A DNA stretch of 64,000 nt from NCBI GenBank assembly GCA_902779085.1, contig CACYZY010000001.1, positions 432,271 to 496,270 of the forward strand, given 5' to 3'. The DNA is from an uncultured Bacteroidales bacterium. GTDB taxonomy: Bacteria > Bacteroidota > Bacteroidia > Bacteroidales > Bacteroidaceae. The notes beneath the pieces were generated by a model. That model was given only the letters and a program-made list of their open reading frames with translations. It made no database searches and was not told the DNA's origin. Below, one piece after another: positions 3,534 through 56,390 of the stretch. The translations under genes and the position numbers were made by a program. Within the stretch, counting starts at the first letter, position 1. The number at the start of each line of letters is the position of its first letter.

Positions 3534-4363
3534 AGAGAAATGCAGTACAGGTAAACTGTAGCGGCAGGAATCGCCATAAGTGCACTGTCAAAGCGGTCAA
3601 GCATACCTCCGTGACCAGGTAAGACATTGCCTGAATCCTTGATGCCCAACTGACGTTTGAACAACGATTCTGTCAAGTCTCCCCAAGTACCAAATACCAC
3701 GATTGTGAGTGCCAATCCCATCCATTCCCATGTATTGAGAGCGTTGAAGAAATGAGCCAGAATAGCTGCAGCAATGAGTGCTACTACAGCCCCACCAATA
3801 CTTCCTTCCCATGATTTCTTGGGTGATATTCTTTCAAATAACCTATGTTTCCCAAATAAAGTACCTATGCAATAAGCACCTGTGTCACTCATCCACAAGA
3901 AAATGAATACCGATAAAGGCAGGATGGGGTTATAGGTCACTTCAGATGAAACAAAATCGTTCTGGAAAGAAATGACATTCAGCAAAGCAAAGGGTAGGGC
4001 GATATAAACCTGACTGAGCATTGTATGTGCCCAGTTGCCGATAGGGTTCTCGCGTTTGAGATACAATTCTGAAATCATCATATAGAGCAACAATAGCACA
4101 TAGGGCAGAAATACGCTAGCACTAACCATAAAGGTGTTGTAGCTCATGAAAGCCATGAACAGGTAACCAGCTCCGAGTGCAGTGATGTAAATGTTGACAT
4201 GTGCATCAGTATATTTGTTGATAAGCTGTCCGTATTCTATCACCGTCATTGCACTGATGATGAGAAACAACACACCGAATGACAATGAGTTGAAAAGGAT
4301 ACAACCCACCAGCACTGCAACAAACAGCACTCCAGTAACGGCTCTTATGATGAAATTTTTCAT
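3530..4363 (-). CDS. cdsA: Phosphatidate cytidylyltransferase
   Basis: A 277-residue multi-pass membrane enzyme that makes CDP-diacylglycerol from phosphatidic acid and CTP, the branch point for phospholipid synthesis. Hydrophobic helices fill most of the length. The C-terminal family signature is present: SPKKSWEGSIGG at about residues 182-193, then GDLTESLFKRQLGIKDSG and LPGHGGMLDRFDSA. It lies downstream of ftsH on the same strand across an 81-base gap and meets lpxB tail to tail. Confidence 0.95.
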   Translation of the reverse strand: MKNFIIRAVTGVLFVAVLVGCILFNSLSFGVLFLIISAMTVIEYGQLINKYTDAHVNIYITALGAGYLFMAFMSYNTFMVSASVFLPYVLLLLYMMISELYLKRENPIGNWAHTMLSQVYIALPFALLNVISFQNDFVSSEVTYNPILPLSVFIFLWMSDTGAYCIGTLFGKHRLFERISPKKSWEGSIGGAVVALIAAAILAHFFNALNTWEWMGLALTIVVFGTWGDLTESLFKRQLGIKDSGNVLPGHGGMLDRFDSALMAIPAATVYLYCISL

Positions 4364-4383
4364 ATAATTGTTTACTTTCTTTT

Positions 4384-4431
4384 CCCTCTCTCCCTGTTAA
4401 ATTAGAAGGAGTACCCTATAAAGGAGAGGGG
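4384..4431. repeat. C-rich/G-rich intergenic hairpin
   Basis: CCCTCTCTCC at the left pairs with GGAGAGGGG at the right across a loop of about 29 bases. There is no T-tract on either side, so it is not a clear intrinsic terminator. Similar C/G hairpins recur at 7241, 11676, 11739 and 22065. Confidence 0.4.
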
Positions 4432-4444
4432 AGTAACTGTATTG

Positions 4445-6562
4445 TTATTCTTCTGTAGGCTTAGATGGACGTTCAGCGTCAACTTCAGCCTCAGTTTTAG
4501 CCTCTGTCTCAGTCTCAGACTTCTTTTCTCCTGTTGCCTCCTGCTTTTTTGCTGCCTCGTTAGCCTGCTTCATTTCATTGGAAATCTTGTTGGCATTGAA
4601 GATTTCTTCTGAGCGTGATGCCCAAGGACGAGGACCAAATATTTCTTCTACATCCTCGGCAAAGATAACCTCACGTTCCACCAGTCTTTGAGCTAACTGG
4701 TTGTGCTTCTCCTTGTTCTCCATCAAGATACGCTTAGCACGCTCATATTGTTCATTGATCATGCGTTTCACCTCATTGTCAATAAGTTCAGCTGTATGCT
4801 CGCTATAAGGCTTGTTGAAACCAAACTCATCGCCTGCGTTATAGTAACACAGATTAGGCAACTTGTCGCTCATACCCATGTAGGCCGTCATGCCATATGC
4901 CTGTTTGGTCACACGCTCCAAGTCATTCATCGCTCCTGATGAGATTCTGCCAATAAACAAGTCTTCTGCGGCACGTCCACCCAGAGTAGCACACATCTCG
5001 TCAAGCATTTGTTCCTTAGTGGTAATTTGCCTCTCCTCGGGCAAGTACCATGCAGCACCCAAAGCCCTACCACGAGGTACGATAGTCACCTTGATTAGTG
5101 GGTTGGCATATTCCAACAACCATGAGATGGAGGCATGACCAGCCTCATGGATGGCAATAGAACGGCGTTCTTCTTCTGTTGTAATCTTGTTCTTCTTCTC
5201 CAAGCCACCAATGATACGGTCAACGGCATCAAGGAAGTCCTGCTTGGTTACTGCTTTCTTTCCATGACGTGCAGCAATCAACGCAGCCTCGTTGCAGACA
5301 TTGGCAATATCGGCACCAGAGAAACCTGGAGTCTGGCGAGCTAATAAGTCAATATCCAATGACTCATCAACCTTGATAGGACGCAAGTGGACACCAAATA
5401 TTTCCTTTCGTTCGTTCAAATCAGGCAAATCCACATGAATCTGACGGTCAAAACGTCCTGCACGCAGCAATGCCTGGTCAAGTACATCTACACGGTTGGT
5501 AGCAGCCAGGATGATGATACCGCTATTAGAACCAAAACCATCCATCTCTGTCAGCAACTGGTTCAAGGTGCTCTCGCGTTCATCGTTGCCACCAAAGGCA
5601 GCTTTGCTCGAACGGGCACGACCTACGGCATCAATCTCATCGATAAATACGATGCAAGGTGTTTTCTCTTTTGCCTGTCGGAACAAGTCGCGTACTCGTG
5701 AAGCACCTACACCCACAAACATTTCCACGAAGTCAGAACCTGACAATGAGAAGAAAGGTACATTAGCTTCACCAGCCACTGCCTTGGCCAACAGAGTCTT
5801 ACCTGTTCCCGGAGGACCTACCAGCAAGGCACCTTTAGGTATCTTACCACCCAGGTCTGTATATTTCTTAGGATCTCGCAAGAATTCAACAATTTCTTCC
5901 ACCTCCTGCTTGGCTTCTGCCAAACCGGCTACGTCCTTGAAAGTAACCTTTTCTTTGCCATCTTTCTCAAACAACTGTGCTTTTGACTTTCCCACGTTGA
6001 AGATGCCACCACCGATGCCACCTCCCACACCGCCAGACATACGCCTGGACAGATAAATCATGAAAGCAATGAAGAATATCAGTGGCATGATTTGCCAGAA
6101 AATAGCCCAGAAATAGTTTTGGCGTTTCTTGTATTGTACGGTACCGTCAAAATGCGATTGTTGAATTTCATTGTCAATGAATTCACCTAAGCTGTGCCTT
6201 GAAGGAGCTTCCGTCATGACGAAAGGCTTTTTCCCAACTTTGCCAGAATCCTGCTTGAAAACTTGCTGCACATACTGCTGTTTGATGTATGCCTCAACTG
6301 AATTGTCGTCATAGCCCACCACACGGTTCACATAACCGTTGCGTACAAATTGCTGGAACTCACCATAGGTGACTTCCCTTTGCGATGAACTGTCGTCGTT
6401 GAAGAACATCAGTCCCAGCAATAGCATACCTATCAGCAGATAGATGATATTCAAATTAAATTTGAAACGATAAATCTTCTTATCGTTCTGATCATTCTGA
6501 CGCTGATCCTGCTCAGGTCGCTGAGGTTTGTTTTTCTCTTTATTGTCGTAGTTATTACTCAT
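4445..6562 (-). CDS. ftsH: ATP-dependent zinc metalloprotease FtsH
   Basis: A 705-residue AAA+ membrane protease that degrades misfolded and regulatory membrane proteins. A charged N-tail is followed by one membrane helix (about residues 36-54), a periplasmic domain, a second helix (about 150-173) and a glycine-rich linker. Walker A GPPGTGKT is at 249-256, Walker B is [12 protein letters not shown], the second region of homology follows, and the zinc site is HEAGH. The C-terminal about 45 residues are a Glu/Lys/Thr-rich tail typical of Bacteroidales FtsH. It follows rsfS after 20 bases, forming an rsfS-ftsH(-cdsA) operon. Confidence 0.97.
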
Positions 6563-6582
6563 TTTCTTTAAACACTAATATC

Positions 6583-6942
6583 TTAATCCAAGTCTGGTAT
6601 GTTGTTTAGCTTCGCATCTGCCCACAAATGTTCCAGGTCATAGAACTCCCTTGATTGAGGGACGAAAACATGCACCATTACGTTGCCATAGTCCATAGCT
6701 ATCCATTCTGCATTGCGCTGACCATCCACGCCTGATGGCTTAACATGACTGCCCTTGATGGTGAAATCCTTGATAGAATCAGCGATAGCTGAAACTTGCA
6801 TAGGGGTATTACCTTGGCAAATCACAAAATACTGACAGATGGTGTCATCTATGCCCGTGAGATCGGCTATCACGATTTGCTTGCCCTTTTTATCCTGTAT
6901 TCCTTCTGTAATTTCTTTTAATAGTTTTTTTGTTTCTTCCAT
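6583..6942 (-). CDS. rsfS: Ribosome silencing factor RsfS
   Basis: A 119-residue RsfS/Iojap protein. The family binds uL14 on the 50S subunit and blocks subunit joining under starvation. QYFVICQGNTPMQVSAIADSI and VDGQRNAEWIAMDYGNVMVHVF are the conserved core. The length is typical. It lies just upstream of ftsH, and the neighbour order rsfS-ftsH-cdsA is familiar in Bacteroidales. Confidence 0.94.
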   Translation of the reverse strand: MEETKKLLKEITEGIQDKKGKQIVIADLTGIDDTICQYFVICQGNTPMQVSAIADSIKDFTIKGSHVKPSGVDGQRNAEWIAMDYGNVMVHVFVPQSREFYDLEHLWADAKLNNIPDLD

Positions 6943-6968
6943 TCTATAATTTTAGGTTATTACAAATG

Positions 6969-6976
6969 CAAAGATA
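6969..6976 (-). promoter_or_regulatory. Putative -7 element for rsfS-ftsH
   Basis: The minus strand reads TATCTTTG about 27 bases upstream of the rsfS ATG, matching TAnnTTTG. Confidence 0.55.
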
Positions 6977-7060
6977 GTCCTTTATCTCTTATAAATCACT
7001 TAAATTTGGCAAAGACTTTCAGAAAAAGTCATTTTTTTTGATTTTTTTTGAAAAGAATGC

Positions 7061-7089
7061 TTGTATTTCAGCAAAAGTTAGTATCTTTG
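7061..7089 (+). promoter_or_regulatory. Putative promoter for tRNA-Gln
   Basis: TTG at 7061-7063 and TATCTTTG at 7082-7089 are 18 bases apart and sit about 30 bases before the tRNA, a good Bacteroidetes promoter. Confidence 0.65.
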
Positions 7090-7117
7090 CAACCGCAAAA
7101 CAGAAATGTTAGGGCAT

Positions 7118-7191
7118 TGGAGTATGGTGTAATGGTAACACTACAGATTCTGGTCCTGTCATTCCAGGTTCGAATCCTGGTACTCCAACCA
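7118..7191 (+). tRNA. tRNA-Gln (anticodon CTG), CCA encoded
   Basis: The sequence folds as a cloverleaf: the acceptor stem TGGAGTA pairs with TACTCCA. The anticodon loop is TTCTGGT with CTG at 7150-7152, and the T arm contains GGTTCGAATCC. The discriminator base is A, followed by an encoded CCA (7189-7191). The U-A first pair and the loop are typical of bacterial tRNA-Gln. CTG is the minor glutamine anticodon, reading CAG codons; the TTG isoacceptor is not in this window. Confidence 0.95.
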
Positions 7192-7226
7192 AAAAGGCCG
7201 CTGGTTCAACACCAACGGCTTTTTTC
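7191..7226 (+). terminator. Intrinsic terminator after tRNA-Gln
   Basis: AAAAAGGCCGCTGGT pairs with ACCAACGGCTTTTTT around a five-base loop and ends in a T-run, directly after the tRNA CCA end. Confidence 0.85.
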
Positions 7227-7233
7227 TTTGCAA

Positions 7234-7265
7234 ATAAAAAACCTCCCCATTGAAATAGGGGAGGT
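7234..7265 (-). terminator. Intrinsic terminator of the DUF349 gene
   Basis: ACCTCCCC and GGGGAGGT form a hairpin at 7241-7265. On the minus strand it is followed by a run of Ts (As at 7236-7241 on the plus strand), downstream of the gene that ends at 7311. Confidence 0.75.
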
Positions 7266-7310
7266 GTATTAAATACAGAGAGCCGTTAGTTCAGCAATCC
7301 CGAAAACTGC

Positions 7311-9308
7311 TTATTCTGCCTTTTCGTTTTCCTTCTGGATGTCTTCGTCGATATGACGGATCTTCTCCTTTGCAGCTTCAATCTCGGTCTTTAGCTTGTC
7401 CATCTTCTTGCTTAGTTCAGTCAGCAGACTGCTTCCAGACTTAGATGTAGCATTCAGGAAACCAAAGTTGTTCTCATAGGTATGTAGCTCGCTTAGTAGG
7501 TTCTCGTAATTGCGTACCAGTTTCTCACGCTCACGATACACAGCCTGTATGCCAGTCTCTTGTGCCTTGCTTACTGCTGCACGGAACTTGTTGATTTTCT
7601 TTGAGGCCATACTCAGGTTGAATGTCTTGTGCAACTTGTCAACCAACGCACGGTATTGCTCATAAATCTTGTCCTTTTCCTTGAAAGGCACATGACCTAC
7701 CTCGTTCCATTCAGCCATCAGCTTATGGATCTGCTGGGTGTTCTCCTCGCTCTCTTCCTTGTTTAGCAACTCCTTCAGCTCTTCAATAATCGCTTTCTTG
7801 CGTTTCAGGTTCTCACCTTCCACTGAGCGCTTGGATGAAGTAGCTTCGCCCTTCTGCTCGAAGAAGTAGTCGCAGGCAGCGATGAAGCGTTTCCATAAAG
7901 CATCAGAATAGCGTTTAGCCACAGGACCAATGCTCTTCCATTCCTTCTGAATCTTCACCAGTTCCTCTGCTGTTTCTTTCCATTCCTTGCTGTCTTTCAG
8001 TGCTTCTACACGCTCTACCAGAGCACGTTTCTTCTCCAGGTTCTCGTTCATGCGAGCCTTAGCAGCCTTGAAATACTCGCTCTTCTTCTTGAAGAACTCA
8101 TCGCAAGCGCCACGGAAGCGTTCAAAGATCTTCACATTCATTTTCTGAGGAGCAAAACCTATGGTTTTCCATTTGTTCTGCAGGGCAATGATCTCTTGGG
8201 TCATCTTGTCCCATGCCTGGAATCCGTTCAGTTTGCTATAATCAATACCCTCAACGATTTCGCAGATAACAGTCTTCTTGTCCAGGTTCTCCTGTTCAGC
8301 TTCCTTCTGCTTCTCGAAATATTGCTGGTGTTTCTTGTTCAACTGGGTAGATGCAGCCTTGAAGCGTGCCCAAATTTCGTCGCGCAACTCCTTGGCAACG
8401 GGACCTGTATCACGATACTCCTGATGCAGTTTCTGCAGATGATGGAAAGCAGCCACCACATCTTCTTCGTCCAACAGTTTCTCTGCTGCTTCACACAACC
8501 TTGTCTTGATCTCCAAGTTCTTCTTGAAGTCATATTCGCGGAATTCATTGTTGAGTTTCAGCAGGTCGTAGAATTTCTCCACATACATCTGGTAGTTCTT
8601 CCACAACTCGTTAGCTTTGGTCAGAGGAATCAGCGTTACCTCATGCCATTGCTGTTGCAGCTTCTTGAACTCGTTATAGTTCTTGTTGGGATCACCTGTA
8701 GACTCAATCAGTTCTTTCAGTTCCTCGATGATGGCCAACTTAATCTGATAGTTCTTCTCACGTTCTTTCTCCTCTTCGGCGTTCAATTGGCTTCTCTTCT
8801 CCTTGACGACGGCCATCACTTGCTTGAATACATCTTCATCTGCATCTGGCGTAGGCACGAAATCCTCTTCGTTACCTCCTCCTTCCAGGAAGGCATGCTT
8901 TGCAGCTTCTACCTCGCTGTTGTGGAGTCTGTAGAAATTCTGCTTCAATGAGTCGATTTCTGCCTTAGATGATTTACTCACATCTTCTGCAATCTCCTTC
9001 AATCTGTCCAGAATTTCAGCCTTCGTTAATTTGTGTACAGATTCGTTCAGCGCAGCTGTTTCTAAAGCCTCCTGAGCCTCTGCAGCTTCTTTGGCCACAG
9101 CTTCTTCAGCCACAGCTTCTTCTTCTGCAACTACATCAGCCACAGCCTCTTCAACTGTTGCTTTTACTTCAGCTACTGCTTCTTCTACTACTGCTGGTTC
9201 CTGAGCTTCTACTGGAGCTTCGGCAGGAACTTCAACAGCTTGCTTTACATCTTCTAATCCTCCTTCCATCTTAGGCAGATTAGTGTCCTGAGTGTCCGTC
9301 ATTGTCAA
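7311..9308 (-). CDS. DUF349 domain-containing coiled-coil protein
   Basis: A 665-residue, highly charged, largely helical protein with several DUF349 repeats. Each repeat is recognised by W-x(n)-G-x-A/V-P patterns such as LQQQWHEVTLIPL, RDTGPVAKELRDEIWARF, KWKTIGFAPQKMN, EWKSIGPVAKRYSDALWKRF and EWNEVGHVPFKEKDKIYEQY. Residues about 15-90 are an Ala/Glu/Val-rich low-complexity tail. There is no signal peptide or membrane segment. The biochemical role is not known to me. It stands alone, with its own terminator. Confidence 0.85.
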   Translation of the reverse strand: MTMTDTQDTNLPKMEGGLEDVKQAVEVPAEAPVEAQEPAVVEEAVAEVKATVEEAVADVVAEEEAVAEEAVAKEAAEAQEALETAALNESVHKLTKAEILDRLKEIAEDVSKSSKAEIDSLKQNFYRLHNSEVEAAKHAFLEGGGNEEDFVPTPDADEDVFKQVMAVVKEKRSQLNAEEEKEREKNYQIKLAIIEELKELIESTGDPNKNYNEFKKLQQQWHEVTLIPLTKANELWKNYQMYVEKFYDLLKLNNEFREYDFKKNLEIKTRLCEAAEKLLDEEDVVAAFHHLQKLHQEYRDTGPVAKELRDEIWARFKAASTQLNKKHQQYFEKQKEAEQENLDKKTVICEIVEGIDYSKLNGFQAWDKMTQEIIALQNKWKTIGFAPQKMNVKIFERFRGACDEFFKKKSEYFKAAKARMNENLEKKRALVERVEALKDSKEWKETAEELVKIQKEWKSIGPVAKRYSDALWKRFIAACDYFFEQKGEATSSKRSVEGENLKRKKAIIEELKELLNKEESEENTQQIHKLMAEWNEVGHVPFKEKDKIYEQYRALVDKLHKTFNLSMASKKINKFRAAVSKAQETGIQAVYREREKLVRNYENLLSELHTYENNFGFLNATSKSGSSLLTELSKKMDKLKTEIEAAKEKIRHIDEDIQKENEKAE

Positions 9309-9464
9309 TAGATATTTAAGTTGCGGGATTCCCCGTAAATATTTTCCAAGCTACAAATAAAATAAGAAAAAAGTAAATTTCATACTTTTTTGCATATATT
9401 TTTTATTCTTAATGTATTTTTTTGGCCATACAGGTCTTTTATGCACCAAAATATGGGCACTTTC

Positions 9465-10820
9465 TTATGTTAACAACACAGTTATAACCATATAGATCAA
9501 CATACCCATGATATCACTGATAATGGTGATGAACGGACCAGTGGCGATAGCTGGGTCAATCTTCAGCTTGTCGAAAGTCATAGGTACAATGGTGCCGAAG
9601 ATAGAGGCAAACATTACCACAGCAAACAGACTCAGGCTTACTGAATAGGTAATGGGAGCTGTTCCTCCGTAGACGATGAAGTTATAGATATATACCAGCA
9701 TGGAAATGATTGTAGCGTTGATGGCTGCCACCACTGCTTCCTTGCCCACATGCTTGAGCATGTCTTTCGACTCCAGCGAGCTGTTGGCCAAACCCTGTAC
9801 CACAATAGCAGATGACTGGGTACCCACGTTACCACCCGTACCACCTACCAAAGGGATGAACAACGCCATTTCGGGATGAGCAGCGAAAGTGCTGTCAAAG
9901 TTACCCAATATCATGGAGTTGCCAATACCGCCCAGGATACCGATAAGCAACCAAGGCATACGTGCACGAGTCTGCTGAACCACGCTGTCGTTGGTCTCGA
10001 TGTCCTGCGAGATACCAGATGCCAACTGATAGTCACGCTCACTGTGCTCACGCACTTGGTCCATCACGTCATCGACGGTGATCTGTCCCACCAGACGCCC
10101 AATGCTGTCCACCACAGGGATGGCCACCATGTCATATTTCTCAATGGCCTGCACCACCTCATCCACAGGCGTATCCACATGCACAGACACAGGGTCGCGT
10201 TGCATCACATGTTTCACTTTAGAGACAGAGGGTGACGATATCATCATCTTCAACGGGAAGGTGCCCAGCAATCGCTCGTCGTCATCCACCACATATACAT
10301 AGTAGATATCGTCCATCTGCTCGGCTTGCATGCGCATCTCCTTGAGGCATTCGGGCATACTCCAGTTCTCGTTCACGATCACCATTTCCGTACCCATGAT
10401 ACCGCCGGCAGTGTTTTTGTCATATTTCAGCAAGTCTACGATGTCGCCTGCCTGCTCAATATCATTGATGTGGCTCAGCACCTCTTCCTGCTTGTCCTCG
10501 TCCAGATCACGAATCAGGTCCACCGCATCATCAGAGTCCATGTTGTCCACGAAACGCTTGGCGATGATTTCAGGATCCAGTTCTTCCAGCAACTCCTTGC
10601 GTTCGTCGTCATCCATTTCAGAAAGCACGTCTGCCGCCTTTTCATTATCGAGCAACTGATAAATATAGCGCGCCTCGTCAACATCCAGTTCCTTACATAG
10701 CTCGGCTATGTCGGCTGGGTGCATGTTCCAGACAATTTTCCTTACATTCTCGCCATCATTGTGTGCGATGAATTCTTTCACGCTATCCACATACTTCTCA
10801 TCAATCTCCATAACGTTCAT
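9465..10820 (-). CDS. mgtE: Magnesium transporter MgtE
   Basis: A 451-residue Mg2+ channel/transporter. An MgtE N domain with acidic helical repeats (about residues 15-125) precedes a CBS pair (about 130-255) that senses Mg2+ in this family. Five membrane helices follow, starting about residue 285, with the conserved GGTGGNVGTQSSAIVVQGL. Its start overlaps the rsmA stop by four bases on the same strand, so it is translated as part of an rsmA-mgtE operon. I see no M-box-like leader. Confidence 0.95.
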   Translation of the reverse strand: MNVMEIDEKYVDSVKEFIAHNDGENVRKIVWNMHPADIAELCKELDVDEARYIYQLLDNEKAADVLSEMDDDERKELLEELDPEIIAKRFVDNMDSDDAVDLIRDLDEDKQEEVLSHINDIEQAGDIVDLLKYDKNTAGGIMGTEMVIVNENWSMPECLKEMRMQAEQMDDIYYVYVVDDDERLLGTFPLKMMISSPSVSKVKHVMQRDPVSVHVDTPVDEVVQAIEKYDMVAIPVVDSIGRLVGQITVDDVMDQVREHSERDYQLASGISQDIETNDSVVQQTRARMPWLLIGILGGIGNSMILGNFDSTFAAHPEMALFIPLVGGTGGNVGTQSSAIVVQGLANSSLESKDMLKHVGKEAVVAAINATIISMLVYIYNFIVYGGTAPITYSVSLSLFAVVMFASIFGTIVPMTFDKLKIDPAIATGPFITIISDIMGMLIYMVITVLLT

Positions 10821-17549: not shown

Positions 17550-18743
17550 ATGACAGATAAGAAGAACATTTTGCTTTTGTCCGTTTGGACAATGGTTCTG
17601 ATGTGCTGTTACTCTTGTAGAGAAAATGGCATCAAGCCCATCAGTGGAGACAATTACTATGTGTGTGCCTACGTTTGGCCATCCTGTCACGACGACTCGC
17701 TCGGACACAAATACCTTTGGCCGCAAGGTGAAGGGGAATGGGAAGTCATCAAGCAGGGCAATCCGCGCTTCCCTGGCCATTATCAACCAAAGCAGCCTCT
17801 CTGGGGATACGGGCACGACGATGACCCTCAGGTGGTGGAGAAATGGATAGACACAGCTCTGAAGTATGGTGTGAACACCTTCGTCTATGACTGGTACTGG
17901 TTTATGGACTATCCTTATCTGGAAGGTGCTCTCGACGATGGTTTCCTCGGTGCCAAGAATAACGGGAAAATGAACTTCTATATCATGTGGGCCAATCATG
18001 AAGTAAAGAAGAACTATTGGAACTATCACCTTTATGGTGATGACACATCGCTTCTTTTCGACCCTAAGGTGAACATGGATCAGTTCAAGACAATTGTGGC
18101 AAGAGTTATCAAACAGTATTTCAATAAGAAGAACTATGTGAAGATTGACGGCTGTCCTGTATTTGGAATCTTTGACATGGATCAGTTCGTCCAAAGTTTT
18201 GGTACGATAGACGAAGCCGCCAAGGCGATGGAATACTTCCGTGCCGAAGTGAAGAAAGCTGGTTTCAAGGGACTCCACATCCAGCAGAACAACGGCGGCG
18301 GCAGTTTCTTGGCAGAAGACTTTATCATAGCCCAGCAGGAACGTATCGACAAACTCGGCATCAACAGCCACGCATTCTATAACATGGGTGGTTTCACCCC
18401 AGATTACCTTACCTACGGCGCCAACGCTATCCAGATACGTGAGCAATGGGCAAAAGCTTTTAGCATTCCCGTCTTTCCCACGGTATCCATTGGATGGGAT
18501 GACACGCCCCGTTTCCCTGCAAAGGGAGAGAACGACATCACTCGTTTCAATCAGACACCCCGTGCCTTCGAATCTTTCCTTGAAGTGGCCAAGAAGTATG
18601 TTGATGAGCATCCTCAGCAGCCCCCTTTTATCATGATAAATGCCTGGAACGAGTGGGTGGAAGGAAGCTATCTGCTGCCTGACCGTTATTTCGGCTTCGG
18701 GTATCTAGAGGCAGTTCAGCACGTCTTTCGTCAGGAAGAATAA
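17550..18743 (+). CDS. GH99-like (WbsX-type) lipoprotein glycosidase
   Basis: A 397-residue protein of the GH99-like/WbsX family, which acts on mannose-containing or surface glycans. The ATG at 17550 gives a proper lipoprotein signal (hydrophobic stretch then a Cys near residue 23); an ATG further upstream would hide it. Family features are YYVCAYVWP near the mature start, a WPQGEGEWE/HYQPKQPLWGYGHDDDP block, YGVNTFVYDWYWF, and the C-terminal MINAWNEWVEGSYLLPD. Residues such as NEWVEG probably line the active site. It is a single gene without a SusC/SusD pair nearby, so it is not an obvious polysaccharide utilisation locus. Confidence 0.82.
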   Translation: MTDKKNILLLSVWTMVLMCCYSCRENGIKPISGDNYYVCAYVWPSCHDDSLGHKYLWPQGEGEWEVIKQGNPRFPGHYQPKQPLWGYGHDDDPQVVEKWIDTALKYGVNTFVYDWYWFMDYPYLEGALDDGFLGAKNNGKMNFYIMWANHEVKKNYWNYHLYGDDTSLLFDPKVNMDQFKTIVARVIKQYFNKKNYVKIDGCPVFGIFDMDQFVQSFGTIDEAAKAMEYFRAEVKKAGFKGLHIQQNNGGGSFLAEDFIIAQQERIDKLGINSHAFYNMGGFTPDYLTYGANAIQIREQWAKAFSIPVFPTVSIGWDDTPRFPAKGENDITRFNQTPRAFESFLEVAKKYVDEHPQQPPFIMINAWNEWVEGSYLLPDRYFGFGYLEAVQHVFRQEE

Positions 18744-19100
18744 ATAAGAGGTTTAGGGAACCTGATAAGATTACCTTGGCGGGCTTACTTGTCTTGGGTG
18801 ATTAATTAACTGTAGCAATAAGTCAAAGATCGTTTTGCGGCGAAATACTCCGAGTCACCGCTTCTCGCTTGTCATTCATGAATGGTTGCAACCAAGAACC
18901 TTTGCTTCCTCACCACCGTTGGCCACCAGCAGTGTTGTCGGCTCTGTTTCTTAATTGCGATACAAAGTTACAAAATATATTTTATATATGCAAATGATAT
19001 ACTAAAAAATATTACATTATTTAGTTTTTTTTTCTTCAGCTACTTGCTAGTAATATGCAAAACGCCCTTGCCATTGTCCGCATATTTATCCAGCTGCGCC

Positions 19101-19119
19101 AGGGGGCATTATAGCCCCC
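19101..19119. repeat. Hairpin at the left of repeat element A
   Basis: GGGGGC ATTATA GCCCCC forms a six-base stem directly before the 22-bp-period array. Confidence 0.6.
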
Positions 19120-19136
19120 AGAAACCCCTCGTTTCA

Positions 19137-19211
19137 TTTAGCGGAAGTAAAAGGTGGTTTTAGCGGAACTAAAACGCCTGTTTACTACTAGTAAGCATTT
19201 AGCTTACTGGT
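19137..19211. repeat. 22-bp-period TTTAGCGGAA array (element A)
   Basis: TTTAGCGGAAGTAA (19137-19150) is followed at exactly 22 bases by TTTAGCGGAACTAA (19159-19172) and at another 22 by a degenerate TTTACTACTAGTAAG (19181). A fourth TTTAGC word is at 19198. The first 36 bases are identical to the array at 56108. Confidence 0.8.
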
Positions 19212-19261
19212 GGCGTGTCTCGGTAGAGTATGAATTAGGGAGATGTATATTGCGTGTTTAT

Positions 19262-19451
19262 GCATAACAACATAACACATAACATTTAGTGAAATAACAT
19301 TGAGAATAAATGGTGAGTACAATCTTTATATTTATATATATTATATATATAATATATAATATATATAAATATAAAACTTAAAATCCGATTGTTTGAAAAG
19401 TTAGTTGATAGAATTGAATAATACAAATGTTATGTTGTTATGTTGTTATGC
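19262..19451. repeat. Nested inverted repeats (element A)
   Basis: The outer arms are 19262-19287 and 19425-19451. They are reverse complements apart from one inserted base, and each is built of CATAACAA-like units. Inside, 19325-19346 and 19354-19375 are perfect 22-base AT-only inverted repeats with a seven-base loop. The whole can fold into a long cruciform or RNA stem. Confidence 0.85.
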
Positions 19452-19705
19452 CTGTTATGTACTCAAATGTTAAATCTTTACTTTTTCATGAAAATAACAC
19501 AACTTTCGTAGTAGCAATGTTATATATCTAAATCATGCCAAGTGACAAAGGCATCTAGGTTGTTTTATATTCAATATGCTATGTTGTAACTATATTGATA
19601 ATCAAATTGAAATGTGTGTATTGTTATGCGTAGATACAGATGGAAAAGGCAAGGACTCAACCATATGGCATTCGACGGAAAGCCCTCCACTATTTGGTAA
19701 TAATG

Positions 19706-21499
19706 CTAGGGCAATATTGGTATCTCTATCCTGCTCTCACCATCAAGATACAAGGTCTGATGCGCTACACGTGTTTTCCCTTGCTCTGACCACACGCCAG
19801 CATAGTTGCTGTGTACGCTGTATTGGGGAAAGTCTGATGAAGAGATATCAACACGGATACAGCTCCCTGGCTGCAACTGCCACATGATGGGCAGGGATTC
19901 GATTTGTAGCTTTACCTTACTGCCTGGTTCATAGTCCTGACGAGCTCCTAAAGGCTGGTTGCGGAACCCCAAAGAGGTGATGCCTGTTCGTATGTTATAG
20001 GTACTCCCATCTGCAAAGACCTCACTGATTTTATAGGTAAACGCTGTGTCGTCGCAATCGGAGCTGACATTGAGCACTACCTTCACTTTTCCTGCCAACA
20101 GGAGAGGAGTCGACAAGGGCTCTGAGACAAATGAGATGACATCGTCCCTGTAGCCTGGCGCTGGTTGCAACTGGCTTCCTCGACGTGTAGAGGAGTTAAA
20201 CAGGGTTTCACCTCCCACTGACAATACGGGATTAAGGGGATCGAACGCATATCTTACTTGACTTGTTGCAAACATTGACGTCTCTGCCAACTTGTTAGCT
20301 GGTGCCAGATAATATACCTTCTGGTCAACGCTATCTTGCAAAGGCCAACTGTTCAGGTCGTGCCACTTGTCTTCGCCAATGGCATATACCTTGACGGCAG
20401 GCTTGGGCGCTTTCTCTTTTAATAACAGGTCATAGAACCAATTGAACTGCAGGGTAGTAAGGTTTACATCCATTGCATGATCCTGCTTGCCAATCATAGG
20501 AGTGATGACGTGGGAGTGGTTCCATGCACCCACAATGAGCTGACTCTTGGCTTTTGTCTCGTCTGGCAACAGGTTGTATCCCAAAATTGTGCCTTCCTGA
20601 TGATGGTCAAAATGGCCTGCCACCACTACGATGGGTACCTTAATCTTTGGAGGGATGCTCCGCAGAGTTTCCCACACTCCTTGATGCCAGTATGGGTCAG
20701 TATAGTCAGTATGTGTAATCCAGTCGCGATACCAAGGCAATTCAACGCCAAAGAAATGCGTATCCATCTCTTTCTGTGGCATATAGGCCATCTGCTCATG
20801 ATAAACCTTGGTAATATCAGGCTTTGCTGGTTTCTGGGTAATCTCTTCTGCGTTATCGATAGCCCAAGCAGTAAGGATGTCCTGTCTGAATTGCCCATAG
20901 CTGTAGGCTGACAGATGGCGGTCCACTCCATAATGATGCAGGAAGATACCCTTCACCTTGTCAGGTACGATGTCTGCAATAATCCAGGCAGTAAGAGCTG
21001 TATATGACTCACCGAACAGTCCTATGTTCTTGCACCAAGGTTGAGAAGCTACCCAATTGACCAGCGCCATACCATCGACACGTTCGTTTACATTGGGTTC
21101 GTACACACCCTCAGAACCTCCTTTGCCACGACAGTACTGAGTAATGTAGGCAATGCCCCTGCGTGCATATCCGCGTCCTATCTCATTGGTATCACCTGCA
21201 CCTCCATAGGCATAAGGAGTGCGTGTAATCACCACAGGCCAAGGACCTTCGACGGTGGGCTTATAGATGCATGTCTTCAACTTCAAGCCGTCGCCTGCTT
21301 CCACCATCTGCTCTTCATATACATAATCGCCTACTGGAGCTGCCACCTGAGTAGAGTCCAACGTAAAGGATACAGTTGAATGCTTCAGCATCTCAGCATA
21401 TGCCCTGCGCTGTTCTTCTGTCAGTTGCTGTGCTTGAAGTGTGGCGCAAAACAGTAGGCATAGTATTGTCAAAATATTTGAAAAATCAATTTTCTTCAT
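19706..21499 (-). CDS. Secreted CocE/NonD-type hydrolase (X-Pro dipeptidyl-peptidase S15 family)
   Basis: A 597-residue alpha/beta hydrolase with a cleavable signal peptide ending near CATLQAQ. The S15/CocE fold is seen from PWPVVITRTPYAYG, GYARRGIAYITQYCRGKGGSEG, the nucleophile elbow GLFGESYTAL (about residues 162-171), the VVAGHFDHHQ and VGAWNHSHV segments near the acid and histidine positions, and a C-terminal jelly-roll region (VKVVLNVSSDCDDTAF). The family includes proline peptidases, cocaine esterase and glutaryl-acylases; the substrate cannot be told. The strand is opposite to the upstream GH99-like gene. Confidence 0.85.
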   Translation of the reverse strand: MKKIDFSNILTILCLLFCATLQAQQLTEEQRRAYAEMLKHSTVSFTLDSTQVAAPVGDYVYEEQMVEAGDGLKLKTCIYKPTVEGPWPVVITRTPYAYGGAGDTNEIGRGYARRGIAYITQYCRGKGGSEGVYEPNVNERVDGMALVNWVASQPWCKNIGLFGESYTALTAWIIADIVPDKVKGIFLHHYGVDRHLSAYSYGQFRQDILTAWAIDNAEEITQKPAKPDITKVYHEQMAYMPQKEMDTHFFGVELPWYRDWITHTDYTDPYWHQGVWETLRSIPPKIKVPIVVVAGHFDHHQEGTILGYNLLPDETKAKSQLIVGAWNHSHVITPMIGKQDHAMDVNLTTLQFNWFYDLLLKEKAPKPAVKVYAIGEDKWHDLNSWPLQDSVDQKVYYLAPANKLAETSMFATSQVRYAFDPLNPVLSVGGETLFNSSTRRGSQLQPAPGYRDDVISFVSEPLSTPLLLAGKVKVVLNVSSDCDDTAFTYKISEVFADGSTYNIRTGITSLGFRNQPLGARQDYEPGSKVKLQIESLPIMWQLQPGSCIRVDISSSDFPQYSVHSNYAGVWSEQGKTRVAHQTLYLDGESRIEIPILP

Positions 21500-56046: not shown

Positions 56047-56094
56047 ATATTTGCATATTTTGTACCTCTATTTGCTGTTTTGAGTACTACTGAA

Positions 56095-56178
56095 AGTCCC
56101 CAATTCGTTTAGCGGAAGTAAAAGGTGGTTTTAGCGGAACTAAGCCGTCCGTTTAGCGGTAGTAAGCGTAAGGGGACT
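56095..56178. repeat. 22-bp-period TTTAGCGG array in a hairpin (element B)
   Basis: TTTAGCGGAAGTAA (56108), TTTAGCGGAACTAA (56130) and TTTAGCGGTAGTAA (56152) are spaced exactly 22 bases apart. AGTCCCC at 56095-56101 and GGGGACT at 56172-56178 bracket them. The first 36 bases equal those of element A at 19137. Confidence 0.82.
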
Positions 56179-56214
56179 AGTGGGGTTGATTTTGGATATC
56201 TAAGTAGCTTTTCG

Positions 56215-56390
56215 ATTACAGATTACAGATTACAGTTTTCTTATAAGCACCACATCTCCGAGAGTAAAATTTTTTATTATATATAATATATATATCATAT
56301 ATATTATATATAATAAAGTTATATACTTCTTCTCTTCTTGTCCAGCGCATGTATAGCTCCCCAAATAAACTGTAAACTGTAATCTGTAAT
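56215..56390. repeat. Nested inverted repeats (element B)
   Basis: Outer arms 56215-56238 and 56367-56390 are reverse complements at 23 of 24 positions, the left one being three tandem copies of a GATTACA-like unit. Inside, 56273-56293 and 56297-56317 are perfect 21-base AT-only inverted repeats with a three-base loop. The architecture is that of element A with unrelated arm sequence. Confidence 0.85.

Follow-up and report, generated by a model that had tools for sequence, protein, structure and literature searches.

Two repeat elements, here called A and B, lie in a 64,000-nt stretch of contig CACYZY010000001.1 from an uncultured Bacteroidales bacterium (the window; its own genome is referred to as G000). 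Both consist of an array of direct repeats spaced by 22 bp (22-mers), followed by two arms of short tandem units that face each other across an AT-rich palindrome (Table 1). An earlier note on this DNA had reported a core of 36 bases identical between the two, and direct comparison of 56108-56143 (B) with 19137-19172 (A) confirms it at 36 of 36 bases. An inverted-pair search likewise recovers the outer arms of B, paired at 23 of 24 positions around a loop of 128 nt, and its inner palindrome, paired at 21 of 21 bp. Among the 15 inverted pairs of at least 18 nt found within 300 nt of each other in the window, only these two and the AT palindrome of A reach 96% or more, the remaining 12 being 73-90% paired; the arms of A form 16 perfect base pairs in an ungapped core. 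That each arm is built of three tandem units is true of B overall, with one deviating unit in the right arm (TGTAAAC, without a mirrored counterpart in the left arm), and less so of A, whose arms are less regular. With DNA folding parameters, single-stranded B is predicted to form one hairpin (z = -7.97; equalled by 0 of 200 shuffles). The extent of element A was delimited by shared match ends, as matches to six further places begin at 18788 and seven matches stop at 19519-19520; other matches start later or extend to 19527-19614.

Table 1. Coordinates of elements A and B within the window.
Feature	Position	Strand	Description
B 22-mer array	56108..56165	+	TTTAGCGGAAGTAA / TTTAGCGGAACTAA / TTTAGCGGTAGTAA, 22-bp-spaced direct repeats starting at 56108, 56130 and 56152
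B left arm	56215..56238	+	GATTACA units x3; proposed iteron set 1
B AT-rich palindrome	56273..56317	none	21 + 3 + 21 (56273-56293 / 56297-56317); proposed melting region between iteron sets
B right arm	56367..56390	-	TGTAAAC TGTAATC TGTAAT; proposed iteron set 2, opposite orientation
Dispersed element A	18788..19520	+	delimited by shared match ends
A 22-mer array	19137..19194	+	two good units, degenerate third at 19181
A left arm core	19262..19277	+	CATAACAA-type units
A AT palindrome	19325..19375	none	from inverted-pair search of window
A right arm core	19436..19451	-	TTGTTATG units

A and B belong to a larger family. The 22-mer arrays occur at 23 places in G000 (20 that remain from 22 listed after removal of the G006 locus and the coding match C1:291664, together with C2:229 kb, C11:30 kb and C8:46 kb), and by eye 13 of these carry facing tandem arms: A, B, c1_158246, c2_342253, c2_43316, C2:229 kb, C8:46 kb, c2_175088, c3_136049, c4_83727, c7_54425, c7_29469 (where the pair finder gave none) and c15_11450. 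A genome scan for the 22-mers returned 11 stretches, every one from the related metagenome-assembled genome RUG12062, in which 58 listed matches group into 36 places. Facing non-AT arms were found by the pair finder at 18 of the 36, a count that excludes the weak L209; the arms of L198 are visible by eye only, and L203 and L213 are places that the array script did not recover. More than 12 different unit words are used across both genomes. Across the genus sample the 22-mer pair is uncommon: at up to three mismatches it is present in 5 of 119 genomes, G000 among them. With 23 and 36 places in the two genomes, the family is not confined to two loci, and an expansion at two places only, which the earlier note had offered as a simple explanation, does not describe it.

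The arms keep close company with the 22-mers. Across 268,857 bases (the window, 18 loci of G000 and 10 of RUG12062) there are 18 arm-type inverted pairs, 17 of which lie within 450 bp of a 22-mer array, in stretches totalling 27,533 bases, and the 18th adjoins the vapE gene P0001; most of these loci were fetched for their 22-mers, and the control compares positions inside loci, not random DNA. An arm score of at least 16 is reached by 19 of 26 real cassettes and by 0 of 520 dinucleotide shuffles (shuffle maximum 14). On family size, positional control and shuffles, chance or local tandem expansion is rejected. A test of whether the arms are in register was circular, the best diagonal having been chosen, and is not used as evidence.

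At some family members the arms stand beside genes for a putative initiator helicase. Two arm loci adjoin genes of about 400 codons (P0001 and P0002) with VapE-like and DUF3874 matches, P0001 being flanked by arms on both sides, and vapE is found beside the arms at the sister loci c1_158246, c2_175088 and G000:C1:51 kb. The last of these, a third G000 gene (L214), shares 74% identity with P0002, and GTGGAGTG arrays lie upstream of it; its RUG12062 counterpart (L191) has a 22-mer array. The modelled VapE helicase gives a whole-length fold match to PriRep1 (7pds) in Foldseek. Relatives in other genomes have upstream words of their own (GTGGAGTG, GTGAAGTG, GTGAAGAG, CCTTCACC, CCCTACAC and others), with little or no upstream word array at L134 to L136, and one clade (L129-L133, L216-L218) has an extra TTTTCCCTG array upstream of the arms, themselves upstream of vapE. 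By eye, the P0001 relatives of two further genomes, G044 and G006, are likewise accompanied by 22-mer-like arrays (L223, L237), and roughly four units spaced by 22 bp precede more distant genes of 410-470 codons at about 11 of 30 loci, many of the remaining loci being too short to judge. Relatives of P0002 occur in 498 phage and 79 plasmid records, each at less than 60% identity.

The proposal that the P0002 vapE block had moved as a unit was dropped, because the surrounding identity to RUG12062 marks a larger segment: comparing L319 at about 4100-9500 (G000:C2) with L318, identity is 80-93% up to the 22-mer array (L319:4089) and 98-100% over the next 5.3 kb or more, an apparent recombination breakpoint at the element. 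At c10/L198 the alignment was too poor to show a clean insertion.

The upstream words and the DUF3874 domain vary together. We aligned 22 proteins, 20 of which had a word, defined as an 8-mer present at least three times in an upstream stretch of at most 632 bases and containing at least three G or C, with words of TTCCC arrays excluded. Among the 80 gene pairs with AAA+ identity of at least 0.78, high DUF3874 identity is confined to those with a common unit word: the seven word-sharing pairs have DUF3874 identities of 0.77-0.95, and the other 73 reach at most 0.65 (permutation 1/9999). Word-sharing pairs are closer throughout (mean AAA+ identity 0.88 vs 0.82, N-terminus 0.77 vs 0.55); at AAA+ identities of about 0.85 and above, however, 16 pairs lacking a common 8-mer have DUF3874 identities of 0.41-0.61. 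This labelling was devised after seeing the result of a first, noisier automatic 7-mer labelling, in which 19 of the 80 pairs share a word (permutation 94/5000) and 12 of those 19 have DUF3874 identities of 0.52 or less. A Mantel test with hand-assigned words gave r = 0.29 and p = 0.03 for the C-terminus, and p = 0.16 and 0.23 for other regions. This indirect pattern makes DUF3874 a candidate for a dedicated domain that would read the iteron word.

Comparison of orthologous and homologous sites bears out the earlier suggestion that structure is kept while sequence turns over, and in three comparisons the arms have changed in step, altered on both sides. First, the site orthologous to B in RUG12062 lies between the same two genes at 81-83% DNA identity and keeps the 22-mers (four units vs three in B), and its arms are GTTACAGTT x3 in place of GATTACA x3, with AACTGTAACAACTGTAACAACTGTAAC in the right arm. 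Its cassette is, by eye, similar to those of c4_83727 and L208, and so appears to be a cassette of another lineage at B's orthologous site. Second, element A aligns with L290 of RUG12062 end to end, AT palindrome included, with an upstream gene 98-99% identical; both arms are built of TTGTTATG units in one copy and of ATGGTAYG units in the other. Orthology here rests on the left flank, since the downstream genes were not found together. Third, in the homologous cassettes c4, L207 and L208, whose identity is 74-84% in left flank and loop and 45-61% in the right flank, the 6 arm pairs that vary, out of 27, differ in both arms, with no one-sided change. At a finer scale, the right arm of L196 lacks one 8-bp unit relative to c7_54425, and one change in its left arm re-establishes pairing with the outer right-arm bases; an indel at c3 and a unit variant at L295 are each mirrored in both arms.

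The surroundings of element A offer an observation of their own, in that it is placed between two segments with different close relatives. Its left flank (window 18000-18763) is 99% identical to RUG12062, vs 83% at the B locus and up to 95% at c7_54425, and its right flank (window 19712-21000) is 97% identical to G008, vs 75-78% at the B locus.

Tandem units, arms beside VapE-DUF3874 genes and the match between word and DUF3874 point to DNA iterons read by a protein. We therefore lean towards reading B as a solo copy within a dispersed set of DNA sites that resemble replication origins, of the type known from Staphylococcus aureus pathogenicity islands (SaPIs) and phage-inducible chromosomal islands (PICIs), with iterons read by VapE initiators. 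Each arm would be a set of tandem iterons, and the two sets would face each other across an AT-rich palindrome able to melt. A VapE initiator helicase, resembling the Rep of SaPIs and PICIs, would read the iteron word through its C-terminal DUF3874 and open the AT region. As one protein would read all six units, units and reading domain would change together, and a new word would reach every unit by unequal exchange and by copying from one inverted arm to the other. On this model both halves of each element probably change together because the matching helicase must read them, and copying between arms probably contributes to their perfect complementarity. Some relatives would have kept vapE beside the arms (G000:C2:175 kb, C1:158 kb, C1:51 kb), and solo sites such as A and B would depend in trans on an initiator that is resident, phage-encoded or lost. 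That arms are iterons and the palindrome a melting site is likely at the vapE-linked loci, and at B, with no initiator in reach, the chances are about even. The origin reading as a whole is well supported for vapE-linked copies, and we infer it for B; binding, melting, replication and a still-working B are also what we infer.

A scheme of this kind is described for several mobile elements. PICI origins have two iteron sets flanking an AT-rich, possibly melting region next to the rep gene (PMC6092414), the initiators of SaPIs and of the staphylococcal cassette chromosome SCCmec bind such repeats through a C-terminal domain (PMC7581432), and in the satellites known as PICI-like elements (PLEs) the initiator varies together with the origin in the domain that reads DNA, the rest being conserved and the modules swapped (PMC8263062). 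By analogy, the arms, AT palindrome, VapE gene and DUF3874 covariation would correspond to iterons, melting site and initiator. B, A and the other palindromic cassettes share with SaPI and PICI origins the two sets around an AT-rich region; a VapE/Rep-type helicase is present for the vapE-linked genes only. The arms adjoin vapE at the three sister loci named above, but not at B. No island surrounds P0001 and P0002, whose neighbours appear to be ordinary chromosomal genes: this is how, by eye, the open reading frames up to about 3 kb from vapE look at L046 and L059, and no whole PICI (integrase, regulator and replication block at an att site) is seen there. Moreover, many family copies have no initiator, an extra 22-mer array is present here, and here the arms precede vapE (and flank it at P0001), whereas the SaPI/PICI origin is placed downstream of rep in the passages concerned. 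PLE RepA/origin modules, from Vibrio satellites, show the same covariation of reading domain and origin, but their initiator is of another family (RepA_N) and their origin layout differs. SCCmec Cch2 is similarly a helicase whose C-terminal domain binds short repeats beside its gene, but it is described with one origin per SCC element (PMC7581432), and the family here consists of dispersed sites.

Several results weigh against extending the origin reading to B and other solo sites. No vapE was found in the window by tblastn of P0001 and P0002, and B's word (GATTACA/TGTAATC) occurs in 0 viral contigs. No initiator with the TGTAATC word was found: the 119 genus genomes gave G000 itself and one match with one mismatch (G132), and RUG12062, outside that sample, carries it at L184 and L189. 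In the loci of the three short and two long vapE genes, each of the solo words (those of A, B, c3, c4, c7 and c15) has two copies at most, if any. Solo words have nine independent non-coding viral matches, of which two (L240, L257) are near a Pfam replication-helicase-related protein; the others are near genes that look by eye like terminase or structural genes, or are simple repeats, and L244, whose neighbour has no Pfam match, was not counted as replication. By word, there are 18 viral contigs with GYTRCAG (15 of them inside reading frames), 3 with GTAACATM, 6 with TGTTATG (by eye near terminase-like genes, one family of 5, or structural-looking genes), and one each with GTGACAG (a simple repeat), TACCATC (at a contig end) and AGTTGCA (near structural-looking genes); a reversed control word gave one, within a reading frame. 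The 10 of 23 G000 places that by eye have 22-mers without arms also count here, and bear on the contrary evidence named in the earlier note, copies whose arms do not match. Finally, the changes at c3, L295 and L196 show pairing or copying that iterons alone do not need.

Long BT4734-type VapE was considered as a partner of the solo sites and rejected on the two such genes of G000: their 3.3-kb loci hold no inverted pair with a score of at least 14, and no solo word occurs more than once in either. The B cassette matched one phage and one plasmid record, in AT-rich stretches of 65 and 55 query bases only. The word of P0001 occurs 11 times at five G000 places and four times, singly, in 118 other genomes, with a further occurrence at L083 of RUG12062, which was outside that search; a resident initiator thus coexists with solo sites bearing its word. 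Solo sites may be relics, non-autonomous parasites or decoys. A bolder and rather doubtful version holds that together they are a bank of diversified origin mimics spread over the chromosome, acting as decoys or parasites of phage and satellite initiators, with arm words rewritten at fixed sites by cassette swapping and inter-arm copying as initiators change.

Among other explanations, a self-maintaining palindrome is the one that the mirrored changes recall: its arms would be copied mutually by template switching at a hairpin or cruciform and its units by slippage, the word having no function. The central AT palindrome, perfect arms of up to 34 bp, the mirrored indel and unit variant at c3 and L295, and the paired loss and restoration at L196 all fit, and unit variants mirrored in register leave room for the mechanism writing new inverted arms that the earlier note had envisaged. 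As a full account we find self-copying unlikely, since it leaves unexplained the arms beside vapE, the covariation of DUF3874 and the common skeleton at dozens of places; it is compatible with the origin model, and both can act together. Origin and operator roles often coexist at rep genes, and in several relatives (L129-L133, L216-L218) the arrays lie between a promoter-like TANNTTTG box, placed by eye, and the vapE start. That the repeats are purely operators, binding an autoregulator of vapE or of neighbouring genes, is nonetheless quite improbable, as facing sets around an AT-rich palindrome are more origin-like and the solo copies have no neighbour gene common to the loci listed. Least probable of these is a selected RNA or single-strand DNA hairpin, such as a regulatory or processing signal. 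The two-sided changes in c4, L207 and L208 and the strong predicted fold of B are in its favour, but a hairpin does not require tandem units, and the only match in the window at an Rfam gathering score is a tRNA (7118-7188). By eye, the genes on either side of G000 copies are convergent at c4 and c2_342253, tandem at B, c3 and c7_54425, and divergent at c7_29469 and c1_158246; the c3 element is oriented opposite to both its neighbours. There is thus no fixed transcript position. Selection on folding was the first of the two readings in the earlier note; in the form of RNA folding it is not needed and not supported as first choice, and the evidence favours protein-read DNA iterons.

Several known element classes were compared. 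Terminal inverted repeats of a transposon or miniature inverted-repeat transposable element (MITE) are rejected because the arms are internal, homology to A extending about 470 bp to the left and 70-160 bp to the right of them; an inverton, because assembled copies (A/L290, c7_54425/L196, B/L184/L189) share one orientation with no flipped copy seen; and a known RNA family, for want of any Rfam match in the window other than the tRNA. Dispersed repetitive extragenic palindromic (REP) and MITE-like repeats have many intergenic non-coding copies and a few related genes, as is the case here, but the arms of the present family are not element ends and vary from copy to copy.

Other repeats accompany the family. 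At L059, L061, L082, L083, L086, L079 and L223 the 22-mer array is followed or bordered by a short palindrome, AAATTCTCATGAGAATTT or its CTAGAG variant, which also occurs beside vapE genes. Another dispersed repeat (CCTCACGAGG / CCTCGTGAGG) adjoins several 22-mer arrays (L045, L049, L050, L088), and at L050 (c2_446463) the array is followed, some 220-360 bases downstream, by about five tandem 22-bp repeats of CTACTACGGGAGGAACACCGTT. Allowing up to three mismatches per motif, 11 of 26 cassettes have a module TTAAATCTTCACC...CTTTCATAGTAGC beyond the right arm, for example at window 19460-19520.

The literature searches made, on DUF3874, Bacteroides satellite origins with VapE, iterons and VapE in Prevotella, and intergenic, inverted or dispersed repeats of Bacteroidetes, found no description of this family. 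The analysis proposes a function for DUF3874, as reader of iteron words, and the initiators and their sites would offer a natural series of pairs for working out a recognition code. In addition, inverted arms that evolve in concert at orthologous places allow the origin of concerted change to be followed directly.
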